A DNA stretch of 64,000 nucleotides from Flammulina velutipes (lineage: Eukaryota; Basidiomycota; Agaricomycetes; Agaricales; Physalacriaceae), in NCBI GenBank assembly GCA_011800155.1, contig CM022374.1:124001-188000 (forward strand). The letters are read 5' to 3'. Within the stretch, counting starts at the first letter, position 1; each line of letters opens with the position of its first letter. The position numbers and the translations under genes were made by a program. The notes under the pieces were generated by a model that did no database searches, was not told where the DNA came from, and was given only the letters and a program-made list of their open reading frames with translations. Positions 22,836 to 48,749 of this stretch are shown here, one piece after another.

Positions 22836-23118
22836 CACCTGATCAGCCCACCCTTTAGACCTAATTAGGCCGGGCAAGTGGCCCAGATCGTCAGGTCTTG
22901 TTAGGCTGATTCGGGGTGTTCCTCACTGTCATGCAATAGCGCTGTATACATGTAGGTACTTTGTACAATATAATATCAGCCTTCCACCGGGATAACATCG
23001 GGTAGGTTACCCGTGTCGCCACACACTTGATCCCGCATCAATTGCCCCTCACGGACGTTGTCCGGCATCAGCGCACGCCGTCTGATTGTCCCGCCACTTG
23101 AGCTCATCATCGGGTGGC
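22836..23118 (+). repeat. Left terminal inverted repeat of the KDZ element
   Basis: Positions 22836–23070 are identical to the reverse complement of the right end. After that, small differences appear up to 23118. The repeat is then interrupted by the foldback element at 23119–24745 and its last few bases (GCAGTCTTT) continue at 24754–24762. Near-identity of both ends implies a young copy. Confidence 0.95.
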
Positions 23119-24745
23119 TAGACTCCGGCACGAGTTGTGTAGCGGGTACACCCGCCACCCGCGAAGCAGGTACCCGTGCTCCAAAGTCAATACCCACCAC
23201 CCGTTACAGTACCCGGGTCAAAAGGGTACCACCACCCGCGGGTCGAGTGGTCCCATGTACCCGTGTACCCCTCATACCCGTGTACTTTCACGGGTACCCG
23301 TCTAAATAACCTATGCAAATATATAACAGTCAACAATACCTTTCCAACGGTGGTCCAACCTTGTTAAACGGACAAGAACTCGTCATTCTATGCCTTAAAC
23401 AAGTTTCTGTACTGTAATATAGCTCTGCGTGTTCAGTATCAAGGTTTTATATTGTTCTAAACACATAGAAATAGTCTACATATACTATTAAAGAGACCTA
23501 TGTACCAAGTTGAATGAACCCGGGGCGGTTTCATTTAGTGGACGGGGCTCTCACACCTCATAAAGTGCGCTGTTCAACTCGGGCTTCCGGTCCAGCTTTC
23601 CTATAGTAAGGTAAGGAGTAGTACCAATGCTAGGTAAGACCTTAAGCAACACGTGTTTGCTATATCTATTGAAGGGTTTTGTATCAATCAATATCATGCT
23701 GATACAAAGCTATTCAATAGACATAGCAAACACGCGTTGCTTGAGACCTTGTCTAGTAATAGCCTAGCTCTTAGTCTCCATAGAACATGATCAATAGTAA
23801 ATGAACTAATGAACCTCAAGAGTATCACTAGTCAAAGCTATTGAACACATATTCTAAAGAGACTAAGCTTAGTCCATAGTAATACCTGAGTCAACGCGGG
23901 GCAATACTATCTATTAAGCAAGCTATCAAACCTGTTGTAACACAGACATAGTAATGAACTATCAAGCTTTAGAAGCTACGATATACAAAGCTATCTCTGT
24001 CTTATAACAAGACTAATACCTTGCTTAGTAGTCGTAGGATAGCCCCACATTAGCGCGAGTATTACTTATGAATAAGGGCTAATGCTATGGTTGATACTAA
24101 GCCTTGAGAGTAAGTAAGCATTCATTAGACAAGTAAGTAATGAATACACGTACCTTAGGACCGTACTAATGACTTTGATAGAAAGTGTATGAACAATTCA
24201 CGGACACTAGCAATCATAGTAAGTAATAAGAATGAGTTACTAGCACATAGGCTTACCTTGTTGACCATACCCTTACCTTACAGTAGGAAAGCCGGACCGG
24301 AAGCCCGAGTTGAACAGCACACTTTATGAGGTGTGAGAGCCCCGTCCACTAAATGAAACCGCCCCGGGTTCATTCAACTTGGTATATAGGTCTCTTCAGT
24401 AGTGTTTATAGAGTATTTCTGTGTGTTTAGAATGATATAAAAGCTTGATACAGAACACGCAGAGCAATATTACATTACGGGAACTTGTTTAATGCATAGA
24501 ATAATGAGTTCTTATCCGTTTAACAAGGTTGGACTAGCGTTGGAAAGCTGAGAATCAGCTCTACCTTTCACGGGTACATACACGGGTACCCGCGTTAAGT
24601 ACCCGTTGTCCAAAACCACTACCTGCCACTCGCGCACCACCCGCGTCCCGGGTACCCGCCTACCCGTCGCGGGTGCACTCGCAGGTACTTAATGCGAGTG
24701 CACCCGCGGGTCACCCGTTCCACTCACCACTCGTGCCGGAGTCTA
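23119..24745. mobile_element. 1.6-kb foldback (non-autonomous) element inside the left terminal repeat
   Basis: Both ends read TAGACTCCGGCACGAGT in opposite orientation, and the element is flanked by an 8-bp duplication CGGGTGGC (23111–23118 and 24746–24753). The long arms are roughly 23119–23620 and 24270–24745 and are imperfect inverted copies. Within the arms lie clustered ACCCG/CGGGT motifs near each end, and an inner block with CTCGGGCTTCCGGTCC and GGACGGGGCTCTCACACC. The centre has its own hairpin (about 23644–23672 with 23713–23742, AAGCAACACGTGTTTGC type). No protein is encoded. The duplication length fits mobilisation by a KDZ or hAT transposase. Confidence 0.92.
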
Positions 24746-24896
24746 CGGGTGGCGCAGTCTTTAGGTGGGCTCGGAAAAAAATGATATTTTCTGTACAAAT
24801 AAACTAAAAAAAGCGAGCCAATATTGTATATGATGACTAGGGTATTAAAGCTATGTGAACCGCTGCAGACACCCAGAGCTTGGGAACATGACGGGA

Positions 24897-26655
24897 TTAG
24901 TCATCTTCCAACTGATCCACCTCGTCGTCGTCGTTATCCTCATCGTCATCGTTGGGTGCGGCAGATGGCAACGACGATGTACGCAAATCTCTGGTGTGGC
25001 GGGGGGAAGCACCGGATGAAGGGCGCACGGCGTCGGCATTGACGTCGTAGTCGACGTCCTCGTCCTCGTCCTCCTCCTCATCGCTGTCAATGAACCGCTT
25101 GCTCTTCGGAGGCAGTGACCTTTTCAATTTCGCTGCCGCCGTCGTCTTCGACTGAGCGCTCTGTTTACCCTTCCCTTTCCTAGCGGCGGCAGCTGGTTTC
25201 CGAGCCTGCTTAGCGCGCTTGGACGGCTTCATGGCAGCTGGCGCGTCGTTCTCGGTGTCCGTGTTCTTCCTCTTCCTCGTACTTCCTTTATCACTGCGCT
25301 CTTTGCGCGCCCGTATCTCTCCTGCTGCTGTCTGCTGCGCTACCTCCTTCCGGTGCTCATGCACTTGCTCTGCGCTCATCGTACGCCATCGGCATGCACC
25401 AGATCTCCAAAGACTGACCAATTCACGCAGGTCAACGGCGCTTGACATCTCGGAGGGTGCAACGAGGGGAAGCTCTTCGGGCCAGCCAATAATTTCAACG
25501 TGTTGCTTCTCCACGATGGCCGTCTGGTACGACGCGTAGTTCATCTTCGTGCGTTTATTATTGACAGCGATTTCTGCTCACAACGTCAGGAGGAATCAAT
25601 GGAGGAGTAATAAATGAACTTACGGAGGCCATTTCTGATTGTATCACTGAGTTCAGTGCGTAGAGCCGGTCGTTTATCTTGGGCTAGTGGACCAACTAAT
25701 ACATCGTTAATACCATGGCGACCTTCGATATATGTAGAAGCACTTACGAACGCCATTGCTGGAGGTGTAATTGTCGAATATGCGTACGATGTCTTGAACA
25801 TTATGTTGGAGGCGGGCGGGGAAAAAGTCCAGCGCTCCAGGCGTTTCACATGCTTCCATGCAGTTGGCGTCGTCGACATGGCCTCTAGAGAATATCGCAA
25901 AGCCGTGCATTCCCGTCCGCTCGTGAAGATTGATGAGCTATGAGGGCGTAAGCGTTGAACGACGCACAAAATTTTTTAAACGCACCTCCTGCTGAAATCT
26001 AGCAATCGTTAAAGCGGCATCCTTGCCAGCAGCTTTATTGTTGGCTCTAGCCCCCGTCTTCCTAGTCCGGCGGTGTTGCTCCAAGTCGTCCATGAGCGCC
26101 ACCTTCTCCTCCTTGCTCAGATTCTTCTCTGGTTTGCCTTGGATCTTCTTCAGGATCTCTGCAAGCCGCAGTCGTTCGCCCATTGGTAGGTCTTCCAGCG
26201 CTTTAGTCTCAGTAACCACAAAGAGAGCAAACAGACGTACCTTTGTTGTATTCCTTGGCCTTTGCGTGCGTAATGGCGTTGGCCAGATTGACCTTGCGCT
26301 CCTTTTTATACACCGTCACATGATTGCAGCGCTGCTCAATAACAGCGAGCGGGACGTTGTGTTCTTTAGCCAGGATTTCCATCGCCGCCCTATGTTGCTC
26401 GAGATGGGCCTCCACGGCGGCGTCCAGCTTTTTGGTGTTGACTTGCTTAGCTAGACGTTTGAGCATTGTGTCATCGTCCGTGCGCGCAACTGAGCGGTCT
26501 CCATTTGCCCGAAGAGGTATGATATCTTTGGATGGATTCCGCATTGCAAAGCTCGTGTACTGAGTGGCGTTCGGGAGGAGCTCCTGAGTGATAGCCTCAA
26601 GATTATCTCCTCCATTGGCGCTAGGGAGAGCTTCGGGTTGCGCGTTGGAAGACAT
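24897..26655 (-). CDS. KDZ-element cargo protein, 522 aa, with basic and acidic C-terminal tail
   Basis: Five exons (26655–26241, 26200–25986, 25937–25748, 25695–25624, 25573–24897) join in phase with 40–51-nt introns. No enzymatic motif is visible. Residues 1–140 are helical. A central globular part contains TGARANNKAAGKDAA, TGMHGFAIFSRGHVDD, ALDFFPARLQHNVQDIVRIF and VEIIGWPEELPLV. The last 120 residues are low-complexity, first lysine-rich (KRAKQARKPAAAARKGKGK) and then Asp/Glu-rich, typical of nuclear chromatin-binding proteins. The central part resembles a multicopy basidiomycete protein family that I recognise only by pattern and that has no assigned function. It is the outermost left gene of the element and reads toward the left end. 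Confidence 0.75.
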
Positions 26656-27293
26656 TGTTTCGTTTTTTTCTGGGAAACAGTGAGCAAAGGGAGCAGGGAA
26701 ATTCAACCAACTCACCCAGAGGCCATTGGAAATGGAGACATATTCAGGGATTGGTGCGCGCGCGCGCACTGAGGAGCTCCTAGGCACTGAAATTCATTGG
26801 AAATGAGCGCCACCGATGTTATGTTTTCTACGGTCGATGGGTGTTGAAAGACAAGCAGTGTTGCCTAATGTAGTAAGTCACTCTTCATCTCCTACCAGCA
26901 TCACCCTCTCTCAACTCACCAAGAACGAGCATCTTCTGAGCGCTACAACGATGTACTAATCTCATACTGGTGCCGAAATATGCACGCGTGGTGCATCTTG
27001 TGGCGGCGAGTGGCGCCCCTGCAAAGCCATCTTTCGTGTCAGTGATTTTCTTCTTGTCTTTCCCCCCACTCTATGAATACCGTTCGTAAGTTCTGTCCAA
27101 CTGCAGATGCTATGTCTCTCACTATACTTCGCAGAATTCATCATGAAGCTTTTAACCAACACATCCGCCGTTCCGCCTCCTACGCCACCCATCAACGTTC
27201 AAGAAGTAGCGCGGCCAGCGTGTCAGTCATCATCGATTCATCTGCTTCACCGACTCACTCTCCTTTACAGATATAGGCCCAACAGAAAGAGAT

Positions 27294-28194
27294 ATGGAGC
27301 GTCTCATGCCTCCAACCAGTTCACCGGCGCCTATGCGCACTTCACAAAGACTCCTCCGGTTGCTTATGGAAGACCGCAATAAAACCATATTCGCGGGTCG
27401 TGGAAGCAGCGCTCCTCGGGATGCTCAAGATCAGTTCAACGCCAGCATCGAGGAAGGGAAGGGGGTGTCGTCTGTCAATGGTGCGTCTTCTCCACCTCTT
27501 TTCCCGTCCACGTCTAACGGACCCAATAGCACGGCGCCAAACTATGGAGATTGACCTAACGTCTGATGACTCCGACGAGGAGCCGTTACATCTCCCTCAA
27601 AAACGACATCTTAGCCGTGGGCAAACGGAGTCGCCAGCAAGTAAACGGCAACGCACCCCCAGCGTCATTGGCGGGAAAAATATTCAGAAAGAGGAGAAGC
27701 CGGAACACAGAAACGACGTCCAAACCACGATGTCCAATAACGAGCAGCCCTCCGCCGACCAGCTCAGCGTCGACACCGCTCCCGTCTCTAATAGCGCCGA
27801 CAAAGGAGATGTTGCAGCGCTGGGAGCAGCAGAGGACGTCGGCAGCGGTCACAGCGATACGGCGGCAGGCGGGGAAGATGCAGCAGACCCTCAGTCTATA
27901 CACGAGTGGGGCGTAGGGACCTGGCGTCCTCCAACACCTATCGCGTTGCCGCCTGCTCTGTATCAAGCATTTCCGTTCCCTTTCCCCGATTTCGATAACA
28001 CGTCCGAAGGAGAGATGGCGTTTTGGGTGTTGCTTCATGGCTCACGGCCTGGTGTGTATCACGGTTATACGGAGATGACGAGGTGCAATCCTGGCATGTA
28101 TCCTGATCATTGTGCGCTAACAGCAGGAGAGGCCAACGCTATCTTCACGAAGGGCGTGATGGCAGGGCTTATGGTGCAGGACACTTTTCAGTAA
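27294..28194 (+). CDS. Cargo protein with SUMO-interaction-like motif and C-terminal viroplasmin-like domain
   Basis: Two exons (27294–27480, 27530–28194; 49-nt intron) give 283 residues. Just after the splice is MEIDLTSDDSDEEP, a textbook SUMO-interacting motif (hydrophobic-Asp-Leu-Thr followed by acidic residues). A basic patch (SKRQR) follows. The C-terminal 55 residues (FWVLLHGSRPGVYHGYTEM … EANAIF) follow the pattern of the RNase H1 N-terminal/caulimovirus viroplasmin fold: Y/W-x-V-x3-G-x2-P-G-V-Y, a long loop, then S/T-x2-E-A-x3-F. That fold binds RNA:DNA hybrids or double-stranded RNA in other proteins; here the role is inferred. The region between is disordered. It faces away from the gene at 26655. 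Confidence 0.72.
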
Positions 28195-28302: not shown

Positions 28303-29025
28303 CTACGCAAAGTCGTAGGTCTGGAAATAGCATTCACCAGCTGCATAACGCTCTTGTAATGTACCGTCTTTATATGTGTACGTGACGTCCAAGATAGCGT
28401 TGAATGAGCACTTCACATACTCACTAATAGCGGTGAAGTCCCGACACTGGTCGTCCTCGCATGGCACTCTCTCTGCGACAAACATCCTGTAGCCTAGACC
28501 ACTCATCTCTTTGTCGTGCGCCTCGAGAGTCTTGCAGATGTGGTCGAGTTGAAGTTGAGCTTCCTCCGGAGTTGTGCAATTGCGCGCAGACAAGACCAAC
28601 CCTTTCGCCCAGACAGGAATTCTTCGGCATTCCAGTAGAGCGCGCACAGCACCCTGGATGAGCCGAGCATCGCGTAGAATGGCGCTGACCGCTGCCTTGT
28701 TATAGGGTCTGGCGCAGGCTGGTAAGTTTTCAGTCAAACAAGGAAAACATACACACAATGTATACTGCTCCTCTTGGTTCAACGGAACCCGACGCCGTCG
28801 ATTGGCTTTCTCAGCTTGAATGTCATAGTATTTTTTCATTTTTATACGCCGTTCATGGCGATGGCTGCTTATCTTGTCAATGTCTAACGCGAAAGTGAGA
28901 CAAACTGTTGAGACATACCTGGCGTAATCTTTGCGTTTGCGAGCTAGCTCAGCCTCATGCTTCTCTTCAGCCGTATGGTAGAGCGTTGGTCTCCCTCGTT
29001 TCTTGCCAGTTCTGGCGGGGCCCAT
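28303..29025 (-). CDS. Cargo protein with AT-hook-like basic N-terminus
   Basis: The N-terminus is KKRGRPTLYHTAEEKHEAEL, an AT-hook-like KRGRP followed by a helical basic stretch (KRKDY … ERRIKMKKYYDIQAEKANRRRR). This suggests DNA binding. One intron is needed (28918–28868, 51 nt) to join KDYA to SHRHERRIK. A second, 36-nt, in-frame intron after QYTL is possible but not required. The C-terminal 120 residues (helical, with ECRRIPVWAKG and ERYAAGECYFQTYDF) have no recognisable domain. The same N-terminal pattern (G-R-x-x-L-Y-x-T-x-E) occurs in the cargo gene at 35427. Confidence 0.65.
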   Translation of the reverse strand: MGPARTGKKRGRPTLYHTAEEKHEAELARKRKDYARYVSTVCLTFALDIDKISSHRHERRIKMKKYYDIQAEKANRRRRVPLNQEEQYTLCVCFPCLTENLPACARPYNKAAVSAILRDARLIQGAVRALLECRRIPVWAKGLVLSARNCTTPEEAQLQLDHICKTLEAHDKEMSGLGYRMFVAERVPCEDDQCRDFTAISEYVKCSFNAILDVTYTYKDGTLQERYAAGECYFQTYDFA

Positions 29026-29279
29026 AGCAATGAGTAAATGAGCCCTAGTAGTAGAATTTCTAAAAAAGTTCTGGGATATGGTGGGATAAATGATAGGTAA
29101 TCTGAGGGATCCTATCCCAGAGGGTCCGGAGCTCTGTCCAAAAAGGGATGCTCATGTAAGCAAGCCCCGCCGTGGGCGTTCAGCGCGCTCAACCACGTGC
29201 CCCGGCGCTGTTCAAAACGATTATTTATTAATTATTTTAAATCTTAATTCGGTTGGGGATACCATCCCACGTGGGTCTG

Positions 29280-30100
29280 GCCGGCATATGAATGCGGGCG
29301 CTGCGCCACGCTTTCCTGTATCGTCCTGCGTCACCTGCTTCTTTCGTATTCATCAGATATAGTCTATTACATCACCCAGATGCACTTATACTCAACCGAA
29401 ATAGCAGGGTAAGAACAGAATACGAGCAGAATTATTTGGGCTGCCGCCTGCGCCACGCTTTCCGTCCGTACAGGATCCGTCGTCCTCTTTTGGGCCAATA
29501 TATGCCGACTATATATTCACACAGAGTGCTTCCACGGCCCAGAAAGGCTCGTAATCGTGCCGTGACGCCGGCGCTGGCACGACGCCACACTTTCCTCTAC
29601 CGCCATGCGTTGCCTGCTCCTTTGCTACCCGTTCGATTCAGTGTTTTACTCAGCGTAAATTCACTTCGTTTCGACAAAAGAGCAGGATGTGGGCAGAAAC
29701 ATCCGGCGGCGCTGCTCCACGCTTTTCCGTCCTCTTCAGGGTAGCTTGTCCTCGTTTTATCTCTTAGTTCATATATATATTCTATATTTAAGCGTCTCCT
29801 GTTGGTACAAAGTAGACAGATGCAGTCGGAATCATTTACCAGCACTGCGCCACACTCTCACCCCAACCAGTAGCTCGTCTCCAATACGTTCGTGACTTAG
29901 CAGGTAGCAATAAAACTACTTGCCTTAGCCACAGGCTCCGGATAACCCTTGTTCACTTCACGGAGCGAGACATCCTTTTCCCGCTCCTGGGTAGGTTGAC
30001 TGACCTCTTTCCGTCACCTAAATTCCGTAGCAACCCAACAATAAACCCAGCATGGACGAACTTATTTGTTTGCAATGCGCCACACACTTTACGCGGACAT
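29280..30100. repeat. Irregular tandem array (TGCGCCACRCTTTC core) in the KDZ element
   Basis: A core resembling GCGCTGCGCCACGCTTTCC recurs at about 29299, 29449, 29580, 29711, 29845 and 30072, with most spacings about 130–150 bp. Units are diverged. No gene fits. A tRNA A-box-like string (TTGGCTCAGCGGTAACTCGC) lies at about 30138, but a matching B-box and cloverleaf are absent. Confidence 0.5.
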
Positions 30101-30334
30101 ATGGATTTTTGTACTCAAACCTAATGCGTGCCCGCTTGGCTCAGCGGTAACTCGCCTTTCCTTGTATTATTTTATTTTGGTTGAGTGTTCTATCCCGATA
30201 GCACCAATATCACTTTGGACACCACAATGTACCTTCCAAAAACTTTCTATTATCTTTTACCACATCTATTCATCGCACTACATAGCTCCCAATACGTAGT
30301 TAGATAAGCGTTCCAAACTTTGATATATGTCCGT

Positions 30335-33066
30335 TTAATCTTTACTCGGGGCCGCCTCAATCAACTTGTCCAACACCCATTCCACCTCCGCCAATGCGGC
30401 GGACCACTGCTCCCCAGCCTTTCCAGCAACTGCTGCGCTCCTCCACCATGACAGCGTTGCAACGACACTGAGCATCCCATTGGCGCCAGGGACCGTCAGC
30501 GCCTCGAACCCTCCAGATACGCCATCACGCACATAGACCCCCCGACACTTCTCTCTCCACGCTGGCTGCAGGGAACACCACCATCCATTCCACTCCTTTG
30601 CGAACTTCTGCAACGCCGTTTTCTCCAAGGTCATTCGTCCCCTTCTCGTCCGCCCACCAGCAACCCAATCCCCCAGCATTTTCAATCTTTCAGAGCCATC
30701 GCTGTTCTTCCCCCTCGGTAAGGTTGCCCTCTTTTTTGCCTGCATCCCTCCACGAACGTACTGACACTCCAGCCTCCATAGCCTATCCACCACGCCCAAC
30801 ATATCAGCCGCTCCATCTGCAGCGAGGAACTCCTTCAAGGGATCAACGAGCCATTCAACCAAGACACCATTCGTACTCTCCAATCTATCCCACATAGCCT
30901 TCATCGTGGGCACCTTTTGCGCCGGAATGTCGTCGAGATGATGGGCAGGTCTCGGTTCAAAGTCTACCGGAGGTTCGTGCGCTGGACTAGCGTCGCGACT
31001 CGCCTCGTAGGAGGGACTCAAGTCGGCATCAGGACTGAAATGGGGGAAGGGAGTGGCATCGTGCATGGGGATGGTGTTGCCAGTGGGAGATGGACCGTGG
31101 ATAGGAGTCATGATAGGACTGCCACCACGAGGAGCTGGACTCGTATCGGGAACGGGAGGGATGGAGTCGTTGCAACTGGGATCCATTGGCGTAGGTTCGC
31201 GCGACGCTCCAAGTGTCAAGAAGCGTCCTGCGTCCATACCAGGCTCAGCAGGTAAATTTGTTATGTCTCCCAAACCCATTCTCTGACGCTTCGCCTCTCT
31301 AGTGTCGTCTTCTTCACTTTCTCCGTCGCTTCCAACTGGGATTCGTCGACGAGCCCTCTTCTGGCGCAAGACATTCAGTGCTGCTGCCTTCATATCCTCT
31401 GGAAAACTCTCGGCATCATCGACATCCATCCTCTCCGTCGTCCAGGCAGGCCGTGGCCTCGGGCGCCCTTTCGCTGATACTACTTCTCTGAGTCCAGCAG
31501 CTGCAGGTGTGCGCGACTCGTCGGGGACACCGGTACTGGGTTCCGGGGCCGCAGCACTAGGAGCAGGCAACCTAATTCTAGTTGCGCTTCCCTTACTACG
31601 CGTGGTTGTTTCACGAGTGTCGACATCGCTATCGTTGTCGGAAGCCTCGTCCTCGTCCTCATCATCGCTGTCCCCGCCTTCCTCATCGTTTCTGCCATTG
31701 TCATCACCATGACCATTGTCCACATCACCAACTTCCCTGAAAGAAGCCGTACGGTTGGCGGTATTGTTCAGCGCCTTGTGCGTCTTACTCCAGTCTGGGA
31801 CTGTAGCATCGTGGGTGGTAACTCGAGCTCTATCGGCAGGAGACACGCATGTCTCAACATATGTCATGTAGGCCTCGACGAGGTCGGACGATCGCTGAGG
31901 GCCAAGCCACTCCATGAACGACATCCCTGTCCCACCGCTGTTCTTTACTGTAGCCACGCTGCGAACGAAAACTATCAGCCTACTTGAATATAACCAATAT
32001 AAACAACCCACTCGAAATAGCCCACCTGACCGTCATACATGCCCATTGGCCCCGCCACCATTGTGAAGACCTTGAGCCCTGTGTTGATGTCAAGAGCATT
32101 CGAGAGCCTGGAGATTAACGAAGGCGTGTTTCGAACACATCTGAAAGGACTGGTAAGTCAGTTAGCTCAGAAGTAATCAGCAGCGACTCACGTAGCAATA
32201 ACAGCAGAATTATCGGAAGACCCTGTGTCGAACACGTTCTCTGCTCTCGCACGCTCAGCGTCAGCCTCCCTCTTTGCCTTCGCCACCCAGGTGTTCTGCT
32301 GTTCTTTGGGCAATTTCGCGAAAAATTCCTTTGCGATCCGTTGTGTAAGCGCCAGCGGGATCTTTTTGACCGACTTGTCCGGGCGATTAGCGAACTCTGC
32401 CTCGACCGCTGCCTGCATTCCAGATTCAGAGTACTGGTCATGCCGAAATTGTTGAGCGCCAGAACGTGCTTTCACCCGCTTCTTTTGACCAAACATCTGG
32501 CGAACCATCAACGTCATTGGGTCGTTGGGGTCGAACCGTTGGCCAATAGCAGTGGCGCGCCGAGGAGAAATGCCGACACGCCACTTAACCCAACGTTCTA
32601 ATCTCTGTCTATGTCTCAGCCTTGGCGACATCGAACTCTTTGGATAACTCACCTTGTTCATTGAATTCATGTGTTTCGACCACATGATGGATCGCTCCTC
32701 TGTTAGGTTGGGAGGTACGGGCAAGGGCGCCAATGGATCGTATTGGTTGAGGGGGCGAGGCGGCTCTTCCCAATCCTGGAGAGGCCAAGGAAAGTACGTA
32801 TGGAACAGGTGCTGCATTTCCTTCATTTTTAGTGCGCCAGCTGCCTTACTGATTTCGAGTGCATCAATGTAGCCCGGAATCAATGGACATATGAGCTCTT
32901 CTCGAAGGCCTTGCATCCATCCCTTGTGGTTTCGCCGTTGACTCTTCGGGACAGTAGGTTTCGACGATTTTACGGCAACGGCCGCATTTGTAGGGATAGC
33001 GCGAAAGACAGTAGGACCAGCAGCAGGCGAATGTCCAGTCGGTTTTTTGGTCTTCGATGTGACCAT
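30335..33066 (-). CDS. Large KDZ-element cargo protein, 859 aa, unknown function
   Basis: Four exons (33066–32653, 32604–32192, 32140–32012, 31958–30335) with 48–53-nt introns, all in phase. Residues 1–275 are basic and rich in helices (RLERWVKWRVGISPRRATAIG; ALTQRIAKEFFAKLPKEQQNTWVAKAKREADAE split by charge), with an HMG-like feel in the last helix but not a clear HMG box. A short globular part follows (LNALDINTGLKVFTMVAGPM and GGTGMSFMEWLGPQRS). Next comes about 330 residues of acidic and proline/serine-rich disorder, and a helical C-terminus with several Trp (EWNGWWCSLQPAWREKC). It has the look of a known multicopy agaric family linked to KDZ elements, which I recognise by pattern only. 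No catalytic motif. Confidence 0.75.
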
Positions 33067-33414
33067 TGGGTGTAGGCGAGACCAGAGGCGCAACGGAAAC
33101 AGGCAAGTTGACTCCTGCGGCGTCAGGGTCCATCCACTTCACTCAAAAAAATATCTGATAATTATCTGAGAAACAATCTAAGATCGCAACACGGTGAACC
33201 CTTCATCGGGAATACTTCCCTGCAGATTCCAGAACCTGCCAACGGGCCCAGTGAACTGGATGGATATCAGAAACATTCTACAGTCGATACTCCTTTTGGT
33301 ATCGACATGCGGCATTTCCTCATTTGTAACTCCCTCCAGGTCCTCAGACTTTTAAATATTCTCATCGCCTCGCATTTCTCCAGGTCAACTTTCCCCTGCG
33401 CAGTACCCACCGAC

Positions 33415-34031
33415 ATGTCAGACAACACCGTTGCTAAGCAAGCCACTGGTGAGCTCGCCCCTCTCTGCTACTTCTCGACAGCGCTCATGATATATTGAAC
33501 AGAGGCGCCTTTCTACCTCGACGACCCCTTCATCAGCCCGAGTGCCTATGTCAACTCCAGTGCACCGTGGGTTGCTGGGCGGGCCTACAGTACCGTTCCT
33601 CGCGAGCCTTTGCGCCCCACCTTGTTTCCACGCACAGCCTTCAATGGCAACAAATTTCATTTTTACTGTGTTATTCGCGGCGCCTACACTGGTATTCTCA
33701 TCGACGGGTATTTCGCTTTACTTTGTCCTTTCGTCTGCGCTGCTCACCCTCTTCCAGTCAGCAGGCTGTCAACTTCACCCAAGGCTACCCCAGAGCCTAT
33801 ATGGTGAAGGTCAAGAGTCAAGCAGAAGCCCTTCGGTTGTACAACACCAGCTTGAAGGCCAATGATGTTGAAGTTGTTCGTCACGCTCCGCATGTTGTTC
33901 GGTAGGTACTCTAGCGCACGCTGGAGCTCCCGATCACTGACATCGATTTTTCCAGCTCCCTTAGGAACCCATGGGCCATTATTTGCATCCTCATGCTCGT
34001 CACGTTCGTTGTAGTTTCGTATAGGCTTTAG
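33415..34031 (+). CDS. Small cargo protein: viroplasmin-like domain plus C-terminal membrane anchor
   Basis: Four exons (33415–33448, 33503–33707, 33758–33901, 33956–34031) give 152 residues. The middle part (KFHFYCVIRGAYTGIL … GYPRAYMVKVKSQAEALRLYN) matches the RNase H1 N-terminal/viroplasmin pattern well: F-Y-x-V-x2-G-x3-G-I, then GYP-x-A, then S-x2-E-A. The last exon adds RNPWAIICILMLVTFVVV and a short basic tail, a hydrophobic segment suited to a tail anchor. A membrane-anchored version of this fold is unusual. An in-frame ATG at 33307 could extend the N-terminus by 36 residues, but that stretch contains a TATA-like sequence and reads like leader. Confidence 0.7.
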
Positions 34032-34120
34032 TTCTCGGGATTATACCCGTGTTTGTTTGTATGCGCTTGACTAAAATTCGATGCCATGTTTCCTCCATCC
34101 CTTGTCTTCCCACCACCACC

Positions 34121-37200: not shown

Positions 37201-37985
37201 ATGAAACCTGAGATTAAGTCGTTTTCGAGGTATGAGGAGCTCAGAAGCCCTTCTAAGACTGCCCAGAAGTGAGTGTCCCCCTCTGTTCTCTCTACAGTAC
37301 TTACCATTTTGTTCAACAGGTTACTTATTCGACATTTGTCCCGAAGCCGCTTCGTATTGAAGGTTACAATGTCGCCTGAGGAAGGTAAAACCTCTTTGAC
37401 GTCCGTCAACGCTCGTTGCTTACGAGCTCCAGAGAAAACCAGTGGTTTCGAGCTTCTTGATCTCCTGGAGAGCGTCAAGGGGGGGTTTCTCTACGAACGC
37501 CTGGCCGCTCTCGGTATCACCACCCTCGTTGACCTCAGGCATATCGCAGGATTGACCACTCTGTGGGAATATCGCGACTTGTTGTCCATTGGCATGGGAC
37601 TGTTTCGTTTCGGGCGCAACTGGGCATTTTTGCAGATTTTGTTGAGTCGCTTGCGGAAGGAGGAGCAAGAAAGCATGGGGAATATTACTACTGCTGGTAT
37701 GTTCTTCATATTACTTGGTTTTTCCCTTCTGACACATGCGCTATAGCTATTCTGAAGCACGGCATGTACAGAGACAAGTATCGCTCCCTGAACGACGCTC
37801 TCTGGAAGCCTGAAAAAGCCAAAAAACCCAAGATGGTGGACCTCGACAGCGACACAGAGGTTGCTGCACCCGCCGGACCTGCTCTTGACTTACCAAAATC
37901 GTCTATCGCTCCCAAGGAGGTGGTGCCTCGAGAGGTCATCCGTGTGCGCGCTGCTAATTTGCTTGATTTGCCTCGCTTTCGTTGA
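37201..37985 (+). CDS. Small cargo protein with helical (SAM-like) domain and SUMO-interaction-like motif
   Basis: Exons 37201–37268, 37320–37696 and 37747–37985 give 227 residues. The central part (FLYERLAALGITTLVDLRHI, then DLLSIGMGLFRFGRNWAFLQ and ILLSRLRKEE) has the helix pattern of SAM-type domains. Near the C-terminus PKMVDLDSDTE resembles a SUMO-interacting motif. It is the third cargo protein with such a motif. Same orientation as the four genes upstream of it and the first transposase downstream. Confidence 0.65.
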
Positions 37986-38789
37986 ATATCGGACGTAGTC
38001 TTCCTTCCAATCAGAAATTTTTCGAGCGTGATATCTTCGGTGTGGCGCAATGTGTCTTAAGTAGGTAAGTCACTAGATAAACGGATGAACTAAGCCGATT
38101 TAACGCACCGCAATATATCAGTCACTTACGGCTACAGAAAAAAACATCCCTGAAGTTTGAGGTATGTTACAGTATGCTAATTCCGTAAGTTCAATAAACT
38201 AAATTCTGTGGCGATCTAGGTACAGGACGGTGGAGTGGGCTAGACGGACCAACACTATGGGACCAGCGCGCGTGTCGCTCCACCCAAAAGGTCTTGCGGA
38301 AAAGGATTGTCACGACCCCTTGCATTTTCACAAAGTTGCAATGCCAACTATCACCACACGGGGGAAATCGGGCACAGAGTTCGGGCTGCACTAACACTTA
38401 TAGATGATTACCGTAATTTGCTACACTTGCGAGGGTACGGTAAGGACTACGGTTGGGTACAATGCTTGATTTATTTCAAAATGCAGTAGTAGCAATGCAA
38501 GCCGAGCACTATTTGGTGTTAGCCGGTCTCGTCTACCCCAAGTTTCATGAGCAAGAAGCCGATCTTCATTGTTCTAGAGCAATTTAGGGTAAGCAGGAAT
38601 TGAGGGCTGAGATCTCAGACGACAATAACGAAGATATGTTTTTCGATCTGAAGAAATTGATGCCCCTGATCCGTACCTCGTCCGCTTCCGTCACCATGGA
38701 ATCTCCACCGACCATGCCAGCTCATCCCAAGGCCATAGCTCATCTGTTACGTCCTGTCGTTAACCTCGCATCTCTTCATTCAGATCACC
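37986..38789. other. Spacer between cargo genes and the first transposase
   Basis: No gene is supported. Likely the promoter and 5' leader of the CxC2-type transposase gene. In-frame ATGs upstream of 38790 at about 38697 are followed by a stop before the transposase frame. Confidence 0.4.
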
Positions 38790-41700
38790 ATGTCCAACCT
38801 GCGGCCTGAAAATTCATGGTCTATGCACTGGCGCCCTCCCGAGGAACATCGAATGCGACGTCAATTCGAGCTATTGAACGGCGGACCTGATGACCACAGT
38901 GGACTCGGACGACCCACTGCCCACTCGTATCACCAGTTCCACCAGCCACTTAGTCATGGACCTGCATCGAGAAGTGGCTACCACTTAACTTTTGACGGAG
39001 ACAGTCTGGCGTCTGCCCTCCCAGTCCCGGCAAGGAAACGACGACGGGAACCTCGAGATGTTGATGACACATTTGCCGAAATGGATTTTGATGTTTCTGC
39101 CGGGTACGAGGTTGGCGCGGAGTGCTTAGGTGAACCGCGCAATTATGTTGACCAGACGGGAGACATTTTGGAGGAGGGGAATGGGAAAAGGCGACGTCTT
39201 GCTAGTCATACAGTGCGCTTCATTTTCTTTGTTGGGGAGTACTTTATGCTGACCCAGAGCTAGGATGACCGTATGGGTTCGTTCCTTGCTCTGCGCGAGA
39301 CATTTATCGCAGAATCACTTCGACTGCACGGATTGGGCTACTCCACGTACGAGCGCCAGTGCTCATCTTGCTCCTCAAAACTGGTAACCCAGTCGGAGGC
39401 ACATTGCACCCAAACCGACCCAAATCCGCTATATCGCTGCCGTCGTTGTGGCCAATTTGCGGAATGTGAAAGATGTTGTATTCGCCGCCACCAGCAGTCG
39501 CCGCTTCACCGTATCGAAGTGTGTGCTTCATGTTAATTTCTACTGTATCATACTGAGACAGCGTTAGGTCTGGCAGGAAAACTTTTGGGAACGAACCACC
39601 TTGCGCGCTATTGGACTAGTCTACCAGATTGGACACGCCGGTTTTCCTTGCCTCGTTCCAGAGCCTTCCCCCCGACTCCTGACCATAATGGATACTACGG
39701 GGATTCACATAGTGGATGCCCGGTTCTGCGCATGCGCTCAGTCGCAAGGAGTCACTCATTGGCAACAACTATTTCGTGATGGTTGGTACCCCGCGACTAC
39801 TACAGCCCCTCAATCTTGTGCCACGATGGAACTTCTCGAGCTTTATCGACGACTGAAGGTTATTGCGACTGTCAATGTACGCGATTTTGTTACGACACTG
39901 GAAAATATGACAGACCCGTGGGGTACGGAATGGACGCCAGACCGCTACAAGGAGCTTGGCAATATGAGTCGTCAATTCTCATATCTCGAGCGTGTCCGAC
40001 GATCAGGTGTCTGTCTTGATGAGGGAGGGTTAGATAACGCAGCGGAGGGGAGTCTGGCGGTTGAATGCTGGGCATGTCCCCGTCTTGGCGTAAATATGCC
40101 CGCGAACTGGCAGGACGTGTCACCCAGCTTGCAGTAAGTTTTCTCACTTGATTTCGCCCTTGATTTCAGCTGATATCGTTCAGATATGTATACCGGCGTA
40201 TTCTCTCTGTCGACGCAAACTTTCGTATGAAGAATAAGCTCCGCCATATGGCTCGTCCAGACCCACCTCTCTATTCGGGTTTGGGGGTTCAGGTACCTCA
40301 AGAGATGTACCACAACTGGTTGCGTTCGTATGTAACTGAGGAAGAGGTAATGCATTGTTATATTACTTTGTGTATACTACTCTGACGAATACTCAGGTCT
40401 CGAACTGTGCGGCATTCGCTGCACTTTTGCAAAAGGATACAAAATTTACAACTGGGTTGCGTTGGGCAGGTGTGCTCGGAGTCATCTGTGCGCGTCACGA
40501 AATCCTGCTTGGCTTGGGTGACTTGGAAAAGGGCGAACGGTAGGCATTCTTTGCTATGTCGATGTGGGTTTTCATTGATGAAATGCAACAGATACAAGAA
40601 TACTGATTTCATCCTTTACTGGGTACTGTCACGGATGGGCTTAAAGGCGCTTGCAATCACGTACGACATCGCATGTCAGTACAAGAAACGCTGGAAGGAA
40701 CGAATCGAGGCACTTCCTCGCGCCTTGCGCGAACTTCCAGTTCCAACCGTCACTTGGGGGCTACCTATCTGGCATGGCAAAGGGCATGGGATCCTGTGCG
40801 AAGAGGAGAATTCTCTCAAGTACCAGGCCGGTGTTGGGAAGACCGATGGCGAGGGGCCGGAGCGTTTGTGGTCGGTGCTGAATCCCCTATCGTTCATGAC
40901 GAAGGAGGAACACCATGGCGCGAGGCACGACGATATCGAGGATTTCATTAATATGCATAATCACCGGAAGAATATCTCTATGGGTGAGTCTTTTCCTTCC
41001 ATTTTTTCGTCGTCGTACTAAGAGCTATCTAGGGTATGTTCTGTTGGAGAGGCTCAAGATCGCGTTGGAGGAGCGGGACGCGCAAGTGGCTGCCTTCCTG
41101 GAACTCAACCGCTCCCTCAGCTCGGACTTGAAGAAACAATGGAGGAAATTGGTACAGGATTGGGAGGCAGACAAGGACAACAATGTTTGTCCTTACTCTG
41201 CAACATCTGCGGCGAGTACGTGATCTCGTTTCTCTTCTGAGTAGACTTGTGAACTGACAGTTGTTCTAGATGCGATGTCCGAGGCGCAGGTACGCGCAGA
41301 CCTACATCGTTCTGACGCCGAAGAGGCTGCCAACGACGAGAAAGAGATATTGAGCGGGGATGAAGACATGGAGGATGGATTTCAGTTGGAAGAAATGGAC
41401 GACAGCGACCACGGCCATTCACATACCACTGAAGCCCGAGCACCCCGAGCACTGAAGAAGATGACACAGGCCGCGTTCATCATCTCAGGCTTGCAGATCG
41501 AAGAGGCCCAGTGAGTATATACCTGATTAATTCATAAATCATCACTCTAACATGTTCGTTCATAGGCGTCGACTCCGACGAGACACATCCTCTTTCCCCT
41601 CCCTGACGGTGTCTCGCCAAGGCAAGATCAGCGAAAGACGCACAGCGCTCTCTAAGAAGATCAAGGCGTTTCACAAGCAACAACCGTTTTTCATGCCTGG

Positions 41701-42743
41701 AGTGCAGGCCCTCCGGCAAGCCCAGGACCAATCCCGCCTCAAAAACAACCAGTCCGACGGGTATCCAGAAGATACCAGACTCTACCTTCCGTCAGATGTT
41801 CCCCACACACGGACTATGGGCAGTGTTCGTCTGTTTCAGACAGAGGCTAGGCTGCGTCGCGCTCAGTGCCACGATGCCTTGGAATTGGTTCGTGGGCGAC
41901 TATTGTGCAAGCGACACCTCGTCACATTTCGCAATCTGCACGTCACAGGACAACGCGAGTCAACACGATCGTCCAACCTCATCGCGTCGATGTCAGAGAA
42001 GCTGGAGGAGAGTGTGGCGAAGTATAGGCAGTGTCGTCAAGCACTGGTACACCTGGTAGGGGAGGACAAATGTGGGAATTATCGGGTACTGGAGGATGCT
42101 GACGTGGCGGTATATACCGTATCGGAGTCCGACGCTCATGCGGTGAAGCAGTTGGGTGTGTTGGGTGGGAGGGGGAGTAGGAAGGGAGGCGAGGCAAGTC
42201 GGCGCGAAACCCACACTCGCCAGAAGGACCCCACGGATTCGCGATACACCAGAACATCTTGGATATGGACAGCCGATGGACTACGAGACGACAACGAATA
42301 CTTACATGAATGTACGTTCAGTATATTTTGTGTCGATGTCCTGATTGACTGATTGACTATGTACAGGTGTCCGTATCGAATGGGTGAAGGCACTAGCGCG
42401 CAAGATGCGTTGGACGGAAGAGGTTTACATGGTTGAAGAGGAGATGCGGCGTGTTCTGCGCACGCTAGATTATGAGATACGGAAATGGCGTCATCGAGCA
42501 GACCGTGTTTCGTCGCAGCCTCTACGGCAGGACGAGGCAGGTGGACGGCAAGCATATGGCATGCGTCAGGCGTCTTCACTCAGCCATCTCAAGAAGGCGT
42601 TCGAATTTTTATGGCTTCGTTCGGAACCATCGCGCGGGAAGGAGCGTGGCGTAATGGATGAGGCAGCATTGGCTGCAACGACGGCACTTTTCGACGAGGA
42701 CTTAGCGCAGGCCGCGGTGATTTCCGAGGCGGACCATCAATAG
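38790..42743 (+). CDS. KDZ transposase, CxC2 cysteine-cluster type
   Basis: DDE-type transposase of the Kyakuja–Dileera–Zisupton superfamily, 1162 residues in ten exons: 38790–39212, 39264–39518, 39568–40133, 40184–40346, 40397–40539, 40592–40983, 41033–41215, 41270–41510, 41566–42311, 42367–42743. All junctions are in phase. The CxC2 cysteine cluster spans about residues 170–260 (CSSC from C174, then YRCRRCGQFAECERCCIRRH). The catalytic core has D425 (SVDANFRMK), D542 (TYDIACQYKKRW), the HGKGH box at 578–582 and E607 (GEGPERLW), all present. The C-terminus is charged and helical (IEWVKALARKMRWTEEV), as in other members. It should bind the terminal repeats and cut out the element. The open frame argues for a functional copy. 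Confidence 0.93.
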
Positions 42744-43216
42744 TACCGTAGACTTATGTTCAGACTTAGGTAAATTAAATGGAATGTGGCGTCCGCTGTC
42801 CGACTTTTCTTGAATAAGATCAGATATGGAAACATAGGCGGGATGAGACCATAAGTGGATGGGGCGCGGGCGGCACATTGATACTATATATGGTAATATC
42901 TGACCTCAGATGCATGGGATACAACCCACTGGGATAGATCCTATGAACTACCTATCATTTTTTGGGATACAACCCAGTACTTGTAGAAATTCTACAACCA
43001 CAGGTGAGTAAATGGTGGTCGGCGTCGCAGAGTCAAAGAAGTGAAATCCCAAAAAGGTAATCAAGTCTACGAAGGTGCTTGTCTTTGAATCGGAATTGAT
43101 TAGACTTTTAAGTTGCACCACTTATACAACTACCAGTCATGCCAAGGTAGGTTGGAATATATTCAGTATATAGTGTATATACAAGAACTGAAGTTTGTAA
43201 ATAATGGTAATACAGG
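42744..43216. other. Spacer between converging transposase and TET genes
   Basis: 3' ends of two converging genes. Positions 42913–42996 are an inverted, diverged copy of 29049–29120 (shared GTAGAATTTCT, AATGATAGGTA and ATCCTATCCCAG in opposite orientation). Nothing else recognised. Confidence 0.5.
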
Positions 43217-44707
43217 TCAATCCTTGCTTTCAACTAACAAGTCTTCTAACTTCGAGTATAGTCCAAGACCCATCTCCCACCTAGTGCTCTTCAACTCTTC
43301 TAATCGACGGAATTCTTTGCGATCACGATTATATACTTGCTTGTCAGACCGAAATCCATTGTCTACGTATCGAAAGAGCGCGCCAGCAGCGAACTGTGTA
43401 AAGGAAAGGCGTTCATCGCCCTCAGCGAGATCAACGTTCGAATGGGTGACGGTGGCAGAGGGGATAAGAATCGTCGATGCGTGAGGAAATTCAATGACAA
43501 GTCCAAGCTCCCACAGGACGATGTGCCCACCCAGGTGAGGGCGAAACCCTTTCTTCGCGATAGACGTTATAGCGCACCACCCAAACGGCAGGTTCGCGCT
43601 ATCTCGATGCCACCAGCTAACAACTCTCTTCGACAAGTTGAAGGCCGCGCATGGGAATACTGACTTTTTGTAGTTCCACCCAAGGTGAGGATCGTGGCTA
43701 CGAAGTGCGTCCATGTGCTCTTTATAGTACTGAAAGAGTTTCGGGCTCCAGCGTTGGAACGAGGAGCTAGCAAACGTGGCAAGGCGTTGGATGGATTTGT
43801 TTCCCAGCAATTGTTCGGTAAGATAGGCATGCGTCTTTACGGATAGTCTAATTGGACAAGGGGTGCCCTTGCCGCCAGATATCCCAACGTTATGCGCAAT
43901 GAAAGAGCCGCGGCGGTGAGGAAGTAGCTCGTCTTCAGCCCACACCTCAGCATCTGCTAAAGCCCGCATCCTACTAAATGCCAGATCGGCGTCCCGTACG
44001 TACGAGTCGTCGTTGGGCCTACCGGCCAGGACGGCAAAGATGAAGCCTAGGGAGTCGTATAGAGGCATCGGAACACTGTTGGCCTGTGAGCATCACGTCC
44101 TGCTGCAGGAGCGTTGACTTACATGCCGTCCCACTTAATGAGGCGCAGTCCCATCCCCAAGACGTCTTGCAATGAGTACGTCTTGTTCCAACCGTCGGCT
44201 CGAACACCAGGTTTCGCCATGTATCCACCAAATGCCGCAGGAAGCGCAGCCATGATGATAGACGTTGCAATGCCGGGGGGATCTGAGGACGAGCTCATGA
44301 GTTTGGAGGTGCTGCCTGGAGCAGGGACATGACCGGAGGCCGTGATCTTTGCCTCTCTTTGTCGTGCCCGCTTAGCATGTCGGTAGTTGAATTCACCAGC
44401 AGGCGCTTCACGGCGCTTTCCTTGCGTTGATACGTCAGGTGTCGACGGAGGTATGGGCGAAGTAGATCGCGTTGGTGGGGGGGTGGACGGACGGCTCGCA
44501 GATGATTCTTGCATCATGAGGTGGATGCCTTCCTCCTCGGCAGAGGCAAGGGAGGCGGGGAGGTCGAATGACGCGTGGACGGCGAGAGGCTGAACGACGA
44601 CGCGCTCTTTTGGGGAGGGCGCGTATTCCTTGTTGTTGCGCAACTAGCGCCGAGGTGAGTGGGGTGAAGGATGAAGTACAACCACGTACCTTCCGTAGAA
44701 GCCACAT
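43217..44707 (-). CDS. TET/JBP-family 2-oxoglutarate/Fe(II) dioxygenase
   Basis: Probable oxidase of 5-methylcytosine (or thymine) in DNA, acting in the nucleus. Model: 44707–44690, 44643–44123, 44075–43217, 465 residues. The catalytic double-stranded beta-helix is in the C-terminal half: iron ligands H336 and D338 in WWHRDSANLPFGWC, third ligand H391 in ATVTHSNV, and R402 (DERLSFTQF) placed to bind 2-oxoglutarate. The strand HIVLWELGLVIEFP precedes the third ligand. The N-terminal 150 residues are serine/proline-rich with basic clusters (KRARQREAK). The catalytic part is well supported. The first exon (MWLLRK, 18 nt) is the best in-phase start I found but is uncertain. The gene lies between the two transposase genes, converging with the first and diverging from the second. 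Confidence 0.9.
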
Positions 44708-45039
44708 CCTTGGCGACGGCGTATCTAGAAATGATTGTGAGCGCGTTGTTCCGATCTGGTGTGGGCGCAAAGCCTTTCAAGAGCAGTCTGGACGAGGAGG
44801 AGCAGATCGCGCATCGGTGTGGCCCCTGGGAAGATTCCAACACCAAGACACGACCCGAACCTCCCCGCCTTCTGCCCTCTAAGACTGGCGGATGGGAAAG
44901 AATGAATGCTTGCCTTGGTTGTGGTAGCAGATGAAGAGTGAGACAACAAAAGTTAAATGTTGTAGTTTTGCGCAAGGTTCACGGTAAAGGCCGTAGATGT
45001 GATAGTCACATCTGTGACCTTATCATTCCTCAAGGCTCG

Positions 45040-48000
45040 ATGGTACTGCCAAAAAAGTCCAGGAAAAAGGCGCCAAAGCTCGCTATTAACTACGCGACCG
45101 CTGGCTCGTCCAAATCACAGCGAGAAGTCCTGGGCTTGTCTGGAATTAGGCGCCAAAAAAACCTCCAGCTCGCAGAGCGCAGCGCCAGGGTCCATGAACT
45201 CACTCGCGCTCAACGGTTGCAACTCCACGCTCTCCAGCAAGCGCCTCCCCCAGTCCCTCCTGCCGATGACAACGATGACTATGAGATGATGGATGATATC
45301 TTAGGTGGTCAGGACCGGATGAATGTCAGCCACGAAGGCGGAGAGTTTGGCGAGATTCTGGATCGCCTTACCGACGAATATCGCGAGGCGCAGATGTTCG
45401 TTGTTTCCTCTTTACAATAACCCTTATTTATCTTGCTTCAACAGGCGCAGACCAGGCCGCCGCCGGGACTGGTGCACGCGAAGGGACCGCACGCAGAGGC
45501 GCGTTGACATGTTCAAAAGACAACTACCCACGTTGGTGGAGGCCTACATGGACTGGTCCTCTACGCGCGGTGTTGATGGTCTCAATAACTTGGCGCCGTA
45601 TCAGTGTGAGGCAGGCGCAGGGGAGACGCCTCAAAAGCACACGCTAAATGTTGTTGATATTTTTTGTGAGCAGTCTCGTCTTCTCCATAAGCAACGCCTT
45701 GACATTCCGACAGGGAGGCGCCAGCAAGACATCACTGTAACACAGAACGACGCCACTGTTGCCGCGGCTATAATTCGTAACGGGCTTATCCCAGTGGCGC
45801 CCGTCTTCCACTCTTTTGCTATCACCACACGAACGTTGGAGATGTTTCGCGTCGCCCGCCTACGTTGCCCCCAATTATCCATCGACGTGTTTGTCAAAAG
45901 CCTAGGTGATATCCATCTGGCGCCTCCACGTTCAACCCTCAAGACCCAGTTCTCCATCGCATTTGACATCTACGAAGACATACTCCTGGCTGTCGATAAA
46001 AGGGTTCAGCAGGCTCTCGGACGCGACGACGTACATCATCGAATCAAAAATGCATGCCCGTGCTGCATGTATGAGCTCGATGGCGAGGACGAGCTCATCT
46101 ATCGCATCCTCTTTTGCATGGATGGGAATGATTCCCTCAAGCGCATCTTCCGCTCGGCCTCAAACTCCGGCGACGAGAATCTCCCACCAGAAAGCAGAGA
46201 ACGACTTGATGATCGCGAGGACGGCTCTGACTACTTCCTGGCTAGGGAAAAGGTGGACGCCTGGGCAAAAGAGAGGCTCAGTGCGATGCTGGGGGATTTG
46301 CCAGTTGAGGAAGAGCTCAATCTATGCGAGGATCGGTGGGAAAATATGAAGAATGACATGGTGTCGCGCATGTGGGGGATTTTTGAGGAGACGGGTCTCT
46401 TCCTGGCTCTTTGCCGCCATGGTTTCGTTCTTGTCGGCGCTGATATGATTCGTAGCGGGGAGCTGTAAGTCTTTGGTTGCAGTTTCGTGCTTTTGCTGAT
46501 GTGCTCCTACAGCGCAAAGTATCCTCTTGCCATTGTCGAATATCTATTGGATACCCTGGGCTCTGACCTGGGAGGAGGCTACGACATAGGCTGTAAATTT
46601 GGCATAACACTCAAGCGCGCACCAGTACTTGGCAAACTCGCCCAACAGCTTCGATACACCTCTCTTGTTGGCCTTTTCCACGGGTACGCGCATAATCGCT
46701 ACTGCCAGACTTGCAATCTGCCGACGTACAAGTGCGGTTGTGGCCTTGAGGATTTCGAGGGGTGTGAACGGGAGTTCTCACGGACGAATGCCGTTGCTGG
46801 CGTCACACGATATGCCACCAGGTTCCATCGTCGACAACTCATTGCAGCGCTGCTACGGCGAACAGATATGGATACTTATGAAAGATTGAGTGAGTTTTGA
46901 CTGCCTCCCCATCATTGTCTAGCTAACCCCACCAGGTATCTTTCTTGTCAATAACTATAGGCAGGCTTTAGATGTTCTAGCCAACAAGTTCGCGCTCGAG
47001 GTGGCGAAGAAAGAGAAGGGTGTGGCCTCGGATGACGACTTCATCGCGTGGCTAGCGGCAGAGCGGAAACATCTAGAGCAGCTGAAGCGGGAGCCTCCAG
47101 AGGAGACGCTCCAGATGGAATACCTGGCGAAACTCAAGCTGCATGCCCAGTATGCGGGTCAACTCGATAGGGCAAAGGATCACTGGAACGTCGTCACCCC
47201 AGATACCATCGACGCTCGCGACTACACGAACTCTCTAGAGACGGCACGTCGCCATACGCAGGAGAAGCTGGATCGCGCCCTGGACAATGTTCAGACTCTG
47301 GAAGTCAGACTGAAGATTGTACCGTCTGAGCGCTGGACTCCCGCTTCGGATATCTGGGAGACAACAGAGGAGCTGCTGAGGTCTCGCACCTATCGTCGGG
47401 CGTTGGATGTGTTGGAGGGGCTTGTCGTTGCGCGGCTATTTGAGCTCACCAAGATGAACCAGTCGCAAACAGGTGAATACAACGATAGTCCTCTGTCGAA
47501 GCTTTGCTGACTACATGCTCTAGGTTACAAGCTGCGAAAGCATATAGCTAATGCGCTGAAGACTCGCTCTCAAGCAATACGGACAGCGTTGGAAAAGTAC
47601 AACGCCGCCGCCAATGAGTTTCGCCCCCCGCGCCCTAACTTGAATTGGGATCAAGTCGTCGAATACGCTTTCCTCTCGGAGTTCGACCTGCTTCGTGAAT
47701 CTCGGAGTGATATACGTCGGGAGATATGGGCTCAGCCTTGGGCGCGCATTTTAATGGACCAATACTTCAAGATGGAGCGCGCCAAGGAGGAGATAAAACG
47801 GCTCAACATCGAGATCCGACGCCTCATCACATACATCCAAGACGAGGACGCAGAGCTGGAGCGGCAGCGCCTTGACTGGGTGCAAAAAGACTCACGGATT
47901 GCCTTCCAGATTGATCGGTTCCGCCAGCGCCGAGCGCGATTCAACGCCCGTCACTTAGAGCGCCTCTCGAAGTTGTCATTAGATCCAGGATTTTCGGGTA

Positions 48001-48335
48001 CACTGCGGCCTGGTGTCCGTGCCTCCTTCCCTACGGCGCCCAATGCCCCCATCATCCCTCCCTCCACTGCACCTCTCGACGTCCCGACTCCGACGGCGCG
48101 AGGTGTAGAGTCAGAAGCTGACGACGTGGAGAACGCTGAATCAACGCATCCGGTGCCGGGCGACGTAACGATGGGCGAGACAACGGAGAATGAAGCGGCG
48201 GCGGCACCAGAGCAGACGCAGGCGAAAGTAGACGATAGCGATGATGAAGACGACGACGAAGACGACGGCGCTCTCTCGGAGACTGAGGAGCTTGCCCAGC
48301 AACTCGAGCTTGTGGCGCAACTAGGCGATGATTAA
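45040..48335 (+). CDS. KDZ transposase, CxC1 type
   Basis: Second KDZ transposase of the element, 1033 residues in five exons (45040–45395, 45445–46464, 46513–46889, 46936–47472, 47524–48335). It differs strongly from the one at 38790–42743. Catalytic landmarks are D345 (FCMDGNDSLKRI), D483 (GGGYDIGCKFG), FHGYAHNRYCQ and E544 (LEDFEGCEREFSRTN). A CPCC cysteine pair precedes the core. Downstream helices (FLVNNYRQAL) are typical of the superfamily. The C-terminus is acidic (DDSDDEDDDEDDG). The first donor (GTTCGT at 45396) was chosen because it alone joins the basic N-terminal exon in phase. Both KDZ genes have open frames; whether they act together or one is a passenger is unknown. Confidence 0.92.
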
Positions 48336-48446
48336 GGACGCTGTACATTATTCTTACTATCCTTATACTTATTTATCATATATTTAAACATACTTATGAT
48401 CTCTGTTGTATTATAGTTTATTTTTCGAATTTCTGGGTATATTATC

Positions 48447-48741
48447 AAAGACTGCGCCACCCGACGATGAGCTCAAGTGGCGGGACAGCGATCAGAGAGC
48501 GTGCGTTGATGCCGGACAACGTCCGTGAGGGGCAATTGATGCGGGATCAAGTGTGTGGCGACACGGGTAACCTACCCGATGTTATCCCGGTGGAAGGCTG
48601 ATATTATATTGTACAAAGTACCTACATGTATACAGCGCTATTGCATGACAGTGAGGAACACCCCGAATCAGCCTAACAAGACCTGACGATCTGGGCCACT
48701 TGCCCGGCCTAATTAGGTCTAAAGGGTGGGCTGATCAGGTG
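48447..48741 (-). repeat. Right terminal inverted repeat of the KDZ element
   Basis: Reverse complement of the left repeat, outer 235 bp identical, inner part diverging slightly. Being uninterrupted, it shows the original form of the repeat through GGGTGGCGCAGTCTTT, which on the left side is split by the foldback insertion. Confidence 0.95.
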
Positions 48742-48749
48742 ACGTCACC

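Follow-up and report, generated by a model that had tools for sequence, protein, structure and literature searches.

The window analysed here is a stretch of 64,000 nucleotides from Flammulina velutipes (GenBank assembly GCA_011800155.1, contig CM022374.1); it corresponds to positions 124001-188000 of contig C7 in the genome that we searched (38.1 Mb, 23 contigs). Between window positions 22836 and 48741, a predicted gene with weak F-box-like similarity is interrupted by transposons, two of them of the KDZ type. An initial annotation described this interval as a single 25.9-kb KDZ transposon carrying two transposases, a TET/JBP dioxygenase and nine other genes as cargo. We find instead a nest of three transposons, every one flanked by a target duplication of its own; the two inner sets of ends had been missed. 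The boundaries are as follows.

22620-22835, plus strand: interrupted target gene (weakly F-box-like), first part
22828-22835: left 8-bp target duplication of the outer element, ACGTCACC
22836-23118, plus strand: outer left terminal inverted repeat, the part before the small nested element
23119-24745: small third element of 1,627 bp lying within the outer left repeat, its inverted ends TAGACTCCGGCACGAG..
29033-29039: left 7-bp target duplication of the inner element, AGTAAAT
29040-43006, plus strand: inner KDZ transposon, 13,967 bp, with ends GAGCCCTAGTAGTAGAATTTCTA and, inverted and imperfect, CACCTGTGGTTGTAGAATTTCTA, each read inwards
43007-43013: right 7-bp target duplication of the inner element, AGTAAAT
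48447-48741, minus strand: outer right terminal inverted repeat, about 295 bp
48742-48749: right 8-bp target duplication of the outer element, ACGTCACC
48750-50072, plus strand: interrupted target gene, second part

The outer ends hold up to the base. The left end starts at 22836 with CACCTGATCAGCCCACCC, whose reverse complement closes the element at 48741. Aligned with each other, the terminal inverted repeats match at 279 of 286 positions (3 gap positions), and the first 235 bp are identical, as originally reported. Also as reported, an exact copy of ACGTCACC flanks the element on both sides; this sequence occurs nowhere else on the plus strand of the window. When the flanks are joined with one copy of ACGTCACC, a predicted 495-amino-acid frame runs uninterrupted across the junction, restoring the target gene (F-box-like match, E 0.0015, under the Pfam cut-off). 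Exact ends, duplication and open joined frame together establish that the outer insertion is real and that it interrupts the gene.

The small element splits the outer left repeat nine bases before the repeat's inner end, and an 8-bp duplication of its own, CGGGTGGC, lies at 23111-23118 and 24746-24753. Behind it the left repeat continues: 17 bases match the right repeat (the copy of the 8-bp duplication plus nine), so the outer repeat is about 295 bp long. A 97% copy of the small element is found on contig C1, and it also occurs on C5, some 10 kb away from the first of the inner-element copies described next.

What distinguishes the inner element from its surroundings is the way in which its DNA recurs. 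Stretches of 29040-43007 are found again, in the same order, on contig C5 (78-83% identity), with weaker matches at another place on that contig and on C2. None of these recurrences is accompanied by a DNA match to the outer part, the small third element excepted, a pattern that does not fit a single unit. Short pieces near 29040 and 43008 also recur as pairs, about 2.4-2.9 kb apart, at several other loci, which identifies them as the ends of another element. All six other copies of the inner family in which both ends were read have the same kind of ends, GA..TG as in the window, and each has its own exact 7-bp duplication. Four of these are short, all close to 2.5 kb (C8, TAACACG; C14, GATCCAC; C2, AGGTCGC; C4, GCTCCAG). 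The other two are on C5: copy C5a at 247848-280814 (ATCTATT), and copy C5b of 13,899 bp (GCCCTTC), with the same gene order as in the window. A genome scan for the left-end pattern, allowing up to three mismatches, gave 16 occurrences (15 exact, the window counted), against none for its reversed control. Copy C5a appears itself to have been invaded: it contains two additional stretches, of about 2.9 and 16 kb, and the longer one includes another KDZ match at C5:277129.

Three insertions are shown by these ends and duplications. We read the interval as three DNA transposons nested within a gene of weak F-box likeness, each KDZ element with its own transposase and accessory genes, and put the probability of this reading at about 0.96. 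A TET-bearing KDZ transposon of about 10.3 kb, with long inverted repeats and an 8-bp duplication, inserted into the gene. Its left repeat received the 1.6-kb element, and a 13,967-bp KDZ transposon of another lineage, with a 7-bp duplication and short imperfect inverted ends, landed between the outer genes O3 and TET. Movement was presumably by cut-and-paste, driven by the KDZ transposases. Subtracting both insertions and their extra duplication copies leaves 10,297 bp for the outer element.

Could the outer transposase nevertheless now move the whole nest, so that two transposases, TET and nine genes travel together as one 25.9-kb composite? Everything is still enclosed by the outer ends, and both transposases have predicted frames free of internal stops. 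However, one outer repeat is broken nine bases from its inner end and the inner genes recur with inner ends. The initial annotation itself named the lack of another copy sharing boundaries and cargo as a refutation; no such copy was found among the matches listed, and by that standard the single unit fails. We consider a composite of this kind very unlikely. An assembly artefact, in which flanks or inner stretch were misjoined, would have repeats to act upon, but misjoins would not be expected to leave exact duplications of 8, 7 and 8 bp at the junctions or to restore the open frame of the target, and we regard this explanation as scarcely credible.

The nested reading redistributes the genes. 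They were modelled with a small splice-aware program, for which 54 long window frames and 20 genome stretches served as training data, and the models were refined by comparison; exon borders are approximate. The nine other genes of the initial annotation agree with our models, three of them in the outer element, six in the inner. The outer element contains O1, O2, O3, the TET gene and KDZ transposase B (KDZ-B).

24897-26655, minus strand: O1, 519-amino-acid model
27107-28194, plus strand: O2, 327-amino-acid model
28303-29025, minus strand: O3, 224-amino-acid model
43217-44707, minus strand: outer TET/JBP-fold dioxygenase, 465-amino-acid model, HxD..H
44906-48335, plus strand: outer KDZ transposase B, about 990-1,016 amino acids, exon borders approximate

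The inner element contains G1 to G6 and KDZ transposase A (KDZ-A).

30335-33276, minus strand: G1, up to 903 amino acids, first exon uncertain; a companion recurring beside KDZ transposases
33415-34031, plus strand: G2, 152 amino acids, without Pfam match
34121-35060, plus strand: G3, end approximate, RNase H1 N-terminal domain (Cauli_VI)
35427-36054, plus strand: G4, 175 amino acids, N-terminus resembling O3 (pairwise E 0.003)
36226-36942, plus strand: G5, 202 amino acids, weak SAM-domain match under the cut-off
37201-37985, plus strand: G6, 227 amino acids, scanned part without Pfam match
38790-42743, plus strand: KDZ transposase A, 1,159-amino-acid model, CxC2 and KDZ domains, ten exons, no internal stop

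A KDZ domain is present in both transposases, as claimed. In KDZ-A it scores E 3.8e-29 and is accompanied by CxC2 (E 1.5e-31). KDZ-B carries the KDZ transposase domain PF18758 and has no Pfam CxC match at E≤1 (HMMER alone). The stretches of the two proteins that were compared are barely similar (best pairwise E 0.002), and both predicted frames are free of internal stops. Comparison with C5a revealed a weak splice donor in KDZ-A, and among six stop-free splice combinations the product agreeing with C5a was chosen; an early, seemingly broken exon model of KDZ-A and an early model of G4 were discarded, and their ratios of nonsynonymous to synonymous substitution rates (dN/dS; 0.36 and 0.41) are superseded.

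A homologue of O2 adjoins a relative of KDZ-B on contig C9 (pairwise E 1.4e-7), and the N-terminal 40 or so residues of O3 are found again near other KDZ loci; a search of plasmid records with O3 gave no match. Because the protein search with O1 returned its own locus and C9 only, the C9 match lying about 18 kb from the nearest KDZ match listed there, its link to KDZ elements comes from weak similarity (pairwise E 5.7e-5) to a gene adjoining the KDZ transposase on C10, a gene that nearly reaches the Pfam HMG-box cut-off.

Several observations weigh against the nested reading. The relative of KDZ-B on C9 differs in the sequence of its inverted repeats and has no detectable TET gene and no convincing duplication; the O1 homologue on that contig lies outside these repeats, at about 18 kb from the transposase. 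Our searches found the outer element in a single copy, and its gene content as a mobile unit is suggested by position within the repeats together with the duplication. Finally, a seventh relative of the inner element (left end C2:3511621) has no right end, no duplication partner and no transposase in the stretch read. The C9 relative was considered as a second outer copy and rejected, its repeats matching the outer ones at chance level and its duplication being unconvincing. The 18-bp outer end is exact solely at the element's own two ends in the genome; one further place has two mismatches, and the reversed control gives two such places. In a DNA search of the whole element in two parts, the outer part gave no other copy among the matches listed, except for a 69% match to the transposase.

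The TET/JBP dioxygenase is indeed present, identified by fold and not by sequence search. The structure model (pLDDT 63) matches CcTet, NgTET1 and TET2 in fold comparison. The HxD...H triad is invariant in all 11 aligned proteins, namely the window protein and ten of its twelve retrieved relatives. At E≤1 the window protein has no Pfam match, and two of five relatives scanned alongside hit Tet_JBP under the cut-off. Sequence searches of the PDB with the window protein, a profile and relative L039 gave no match; with relative L040 they gave only an unrelated match at E 1.5. The modelled protein is thus recognized as TET/JBP by fold alone, the sequence searches being blind to it. Its predicted activity is the oxidation of methylated DNA bases. 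By the published proposal discussed below, it would oxidize methylcytosine and so relieve silencing of the outer element. Across the genome, 10 of 33 TET loci lie within 12 kb of a KDZ match. The C2 relative of the inner element retains G1-like and G3/G4-like stretches and then a TET gene; in this relative (C2:3493501-3511621) the position of TET after the G4-like stretch may reflect a separate capture.

Most of what had been taken for cargo of the TET transposon is part of another transposon, one that inserted into it. Are these inner genes passengers? Between the window and C5a, dN/dS is 0.24 for G1, 0.10 for G2, 0.27 for G3 (first three exons), 0.16 for G4, 0.36 for G5, 0.18 for G6 and 0.09 for KDZ-A (963 of 1,160 codons aligned), and the aligned C5a codons of all seven genes contain no stops. 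In C5b the aligned codons have one stop in G1, three in G5, one in KDZ-A and none in the others; these may reflect alignment error, splice shifts or partial decay of C5b. Against C5b, dS is saturated or not computable for several genes. These substitution patterns indicate purifying selection on the inner genes.

Association with KDZ transposases was measured by one-by-one searches with G1, G5, O3 (short match), TET and O1. For G1, 56 matches were merged into 29 loci, and 91 KDZ places, a few of which may be exons of one gene, were taken by hand from those listed among 166 matches. Counting the window's own, 23 of the 29 G1 loci lie within 12 kb of a KDZ place, surroundings that make up 4.9% of the genome (binomial P 2.8e-25; 22 of 28 without the window's own locus, P 4.5e-24; the test assumes independent loci, and several look like recent duplicates). 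At 22 of the 29 a divergently oriented KDZ gene lies 7.3-10.7 kb from the G1 homologue. G5 is near KDZ at seven of eight loci, at 3.6-4.3 kb, and the short O3 match lies within 12 kb of KDZ at 10 of 10; O1 is not tied to KDZ by locus association. By this measure, at least G1 and G5 belong regularly to KDZ elements in this genome. With order kept, purifying selection and G1 homologues near divergent KDZ genes, the inner genes do not appear to be random passengers. Of the proposal that the cargo is conserved and non-random, this much stands for the inner set; that the genes form one unit does not.

What G1 to G6 do is hinted at by few domains. The RNase H1 N-terminal domain of G3 (E 1.3e-7) is above the Pfam cut-off, and the C5b relatives agree on it and on the weak SAM match of G5; the remaining accessory genes have no trustworthy domain match. 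P0001, an outside protein with 62% identity across 58% of G1, was the sole match among the 7,992 candidates that were scored. Iyer et al. 2014 (PNAS) reportedly described further KDZ-borne proteins, including a divergent HMG domain. A possible HMG identity of G1 gained no support: Pfam gives no match, the structure model is poor (pLDDT 51) and Foldseek finds nothing better than E 4.8. Because they are conserved together with the transposase, G1 to G6 most likely serve the inner element's own mobility or expression, and are candidate transposition or anti-silencing factors. It is possible, at somewhat under even odds in our judgment, that KDZ transposons of this lineage are multi-gene elements whose conserved accessory set (G1 divergent from the transposase, the RNase H1 N-terminal-domain protein, the SAM-like protein and others) works with the transposase, perhaps handling R-loops or chromatin during transposition or in resistance to silencing.

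The association of KDZ and TET was, as the initial annotation said, already known. Kojima 2025 (PMC12730594) describes complete TET-bearing KDZ transposons of Agaricomycetes, assigns 8-bp duplications and inverted repeats to Zisupton and 7-bp duplications with CA..TG ends to Kyakuja, and proposes escape from methylation silencing. Our outer element is a well-resolved further example: it shares with these a KDZ transposase and a TET/JBP-fold gene inside one element and differs in having a second KDZ element and a third element nested within. Its 8-bp duplication and terminal inverted repeats resemble Zisupton, a likeness drawn from the ends. In the passages of PMC12810828 consulted, Cryptococcus neoformans KDZ1-3 measure about 9.2-11 kb, with inverted repeats of 139-241 bp, an 8-bp duplication for KDZ1, 4-8-bp duplications for KDZ2 and KDZ3, and a CxC1 domain. 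The 10.3-kb outer element is similar in size, long inverted repeats and KDZ transposase, and in its 8-bp duplication resembles KDZ1; unlike them, KDZ-B has no Pfam CxC match by HMMER, and TET is unmentioned in those passages. The inner element resembles Kyakuja in its 7-bp duplication, KDZ transposase and ...TG end, but begins with GA, not CA, and has short imperfect inverted ends, six accessory genes and, in the window copy, no TET. We found no description of the six-gene set in the passages of PMC12730594 and PMC12810828 consulted, and claim no absence from the literature. Base-exact ends are now available for two KDZ lineages.

Just past the target gene, at 50448-54491 on the minus strand, an extended open frame encodes endonuclease and reverse transcriptase domains and is probably a non-LTR retrotransposon. 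Upstream of the outer insertion lies a gene for an AA9 lytic polysaccharide monooxygenase (20934-21947, plus strand). At 11554-18225 there is a tandem array of diverged related stretches, in which a BTB domain was found in the single gene scanned (11557-12585), and at 7926-9865 a tandemly duplicated stretch, its blocks 76-88% alike, contains predicted genes without known family.

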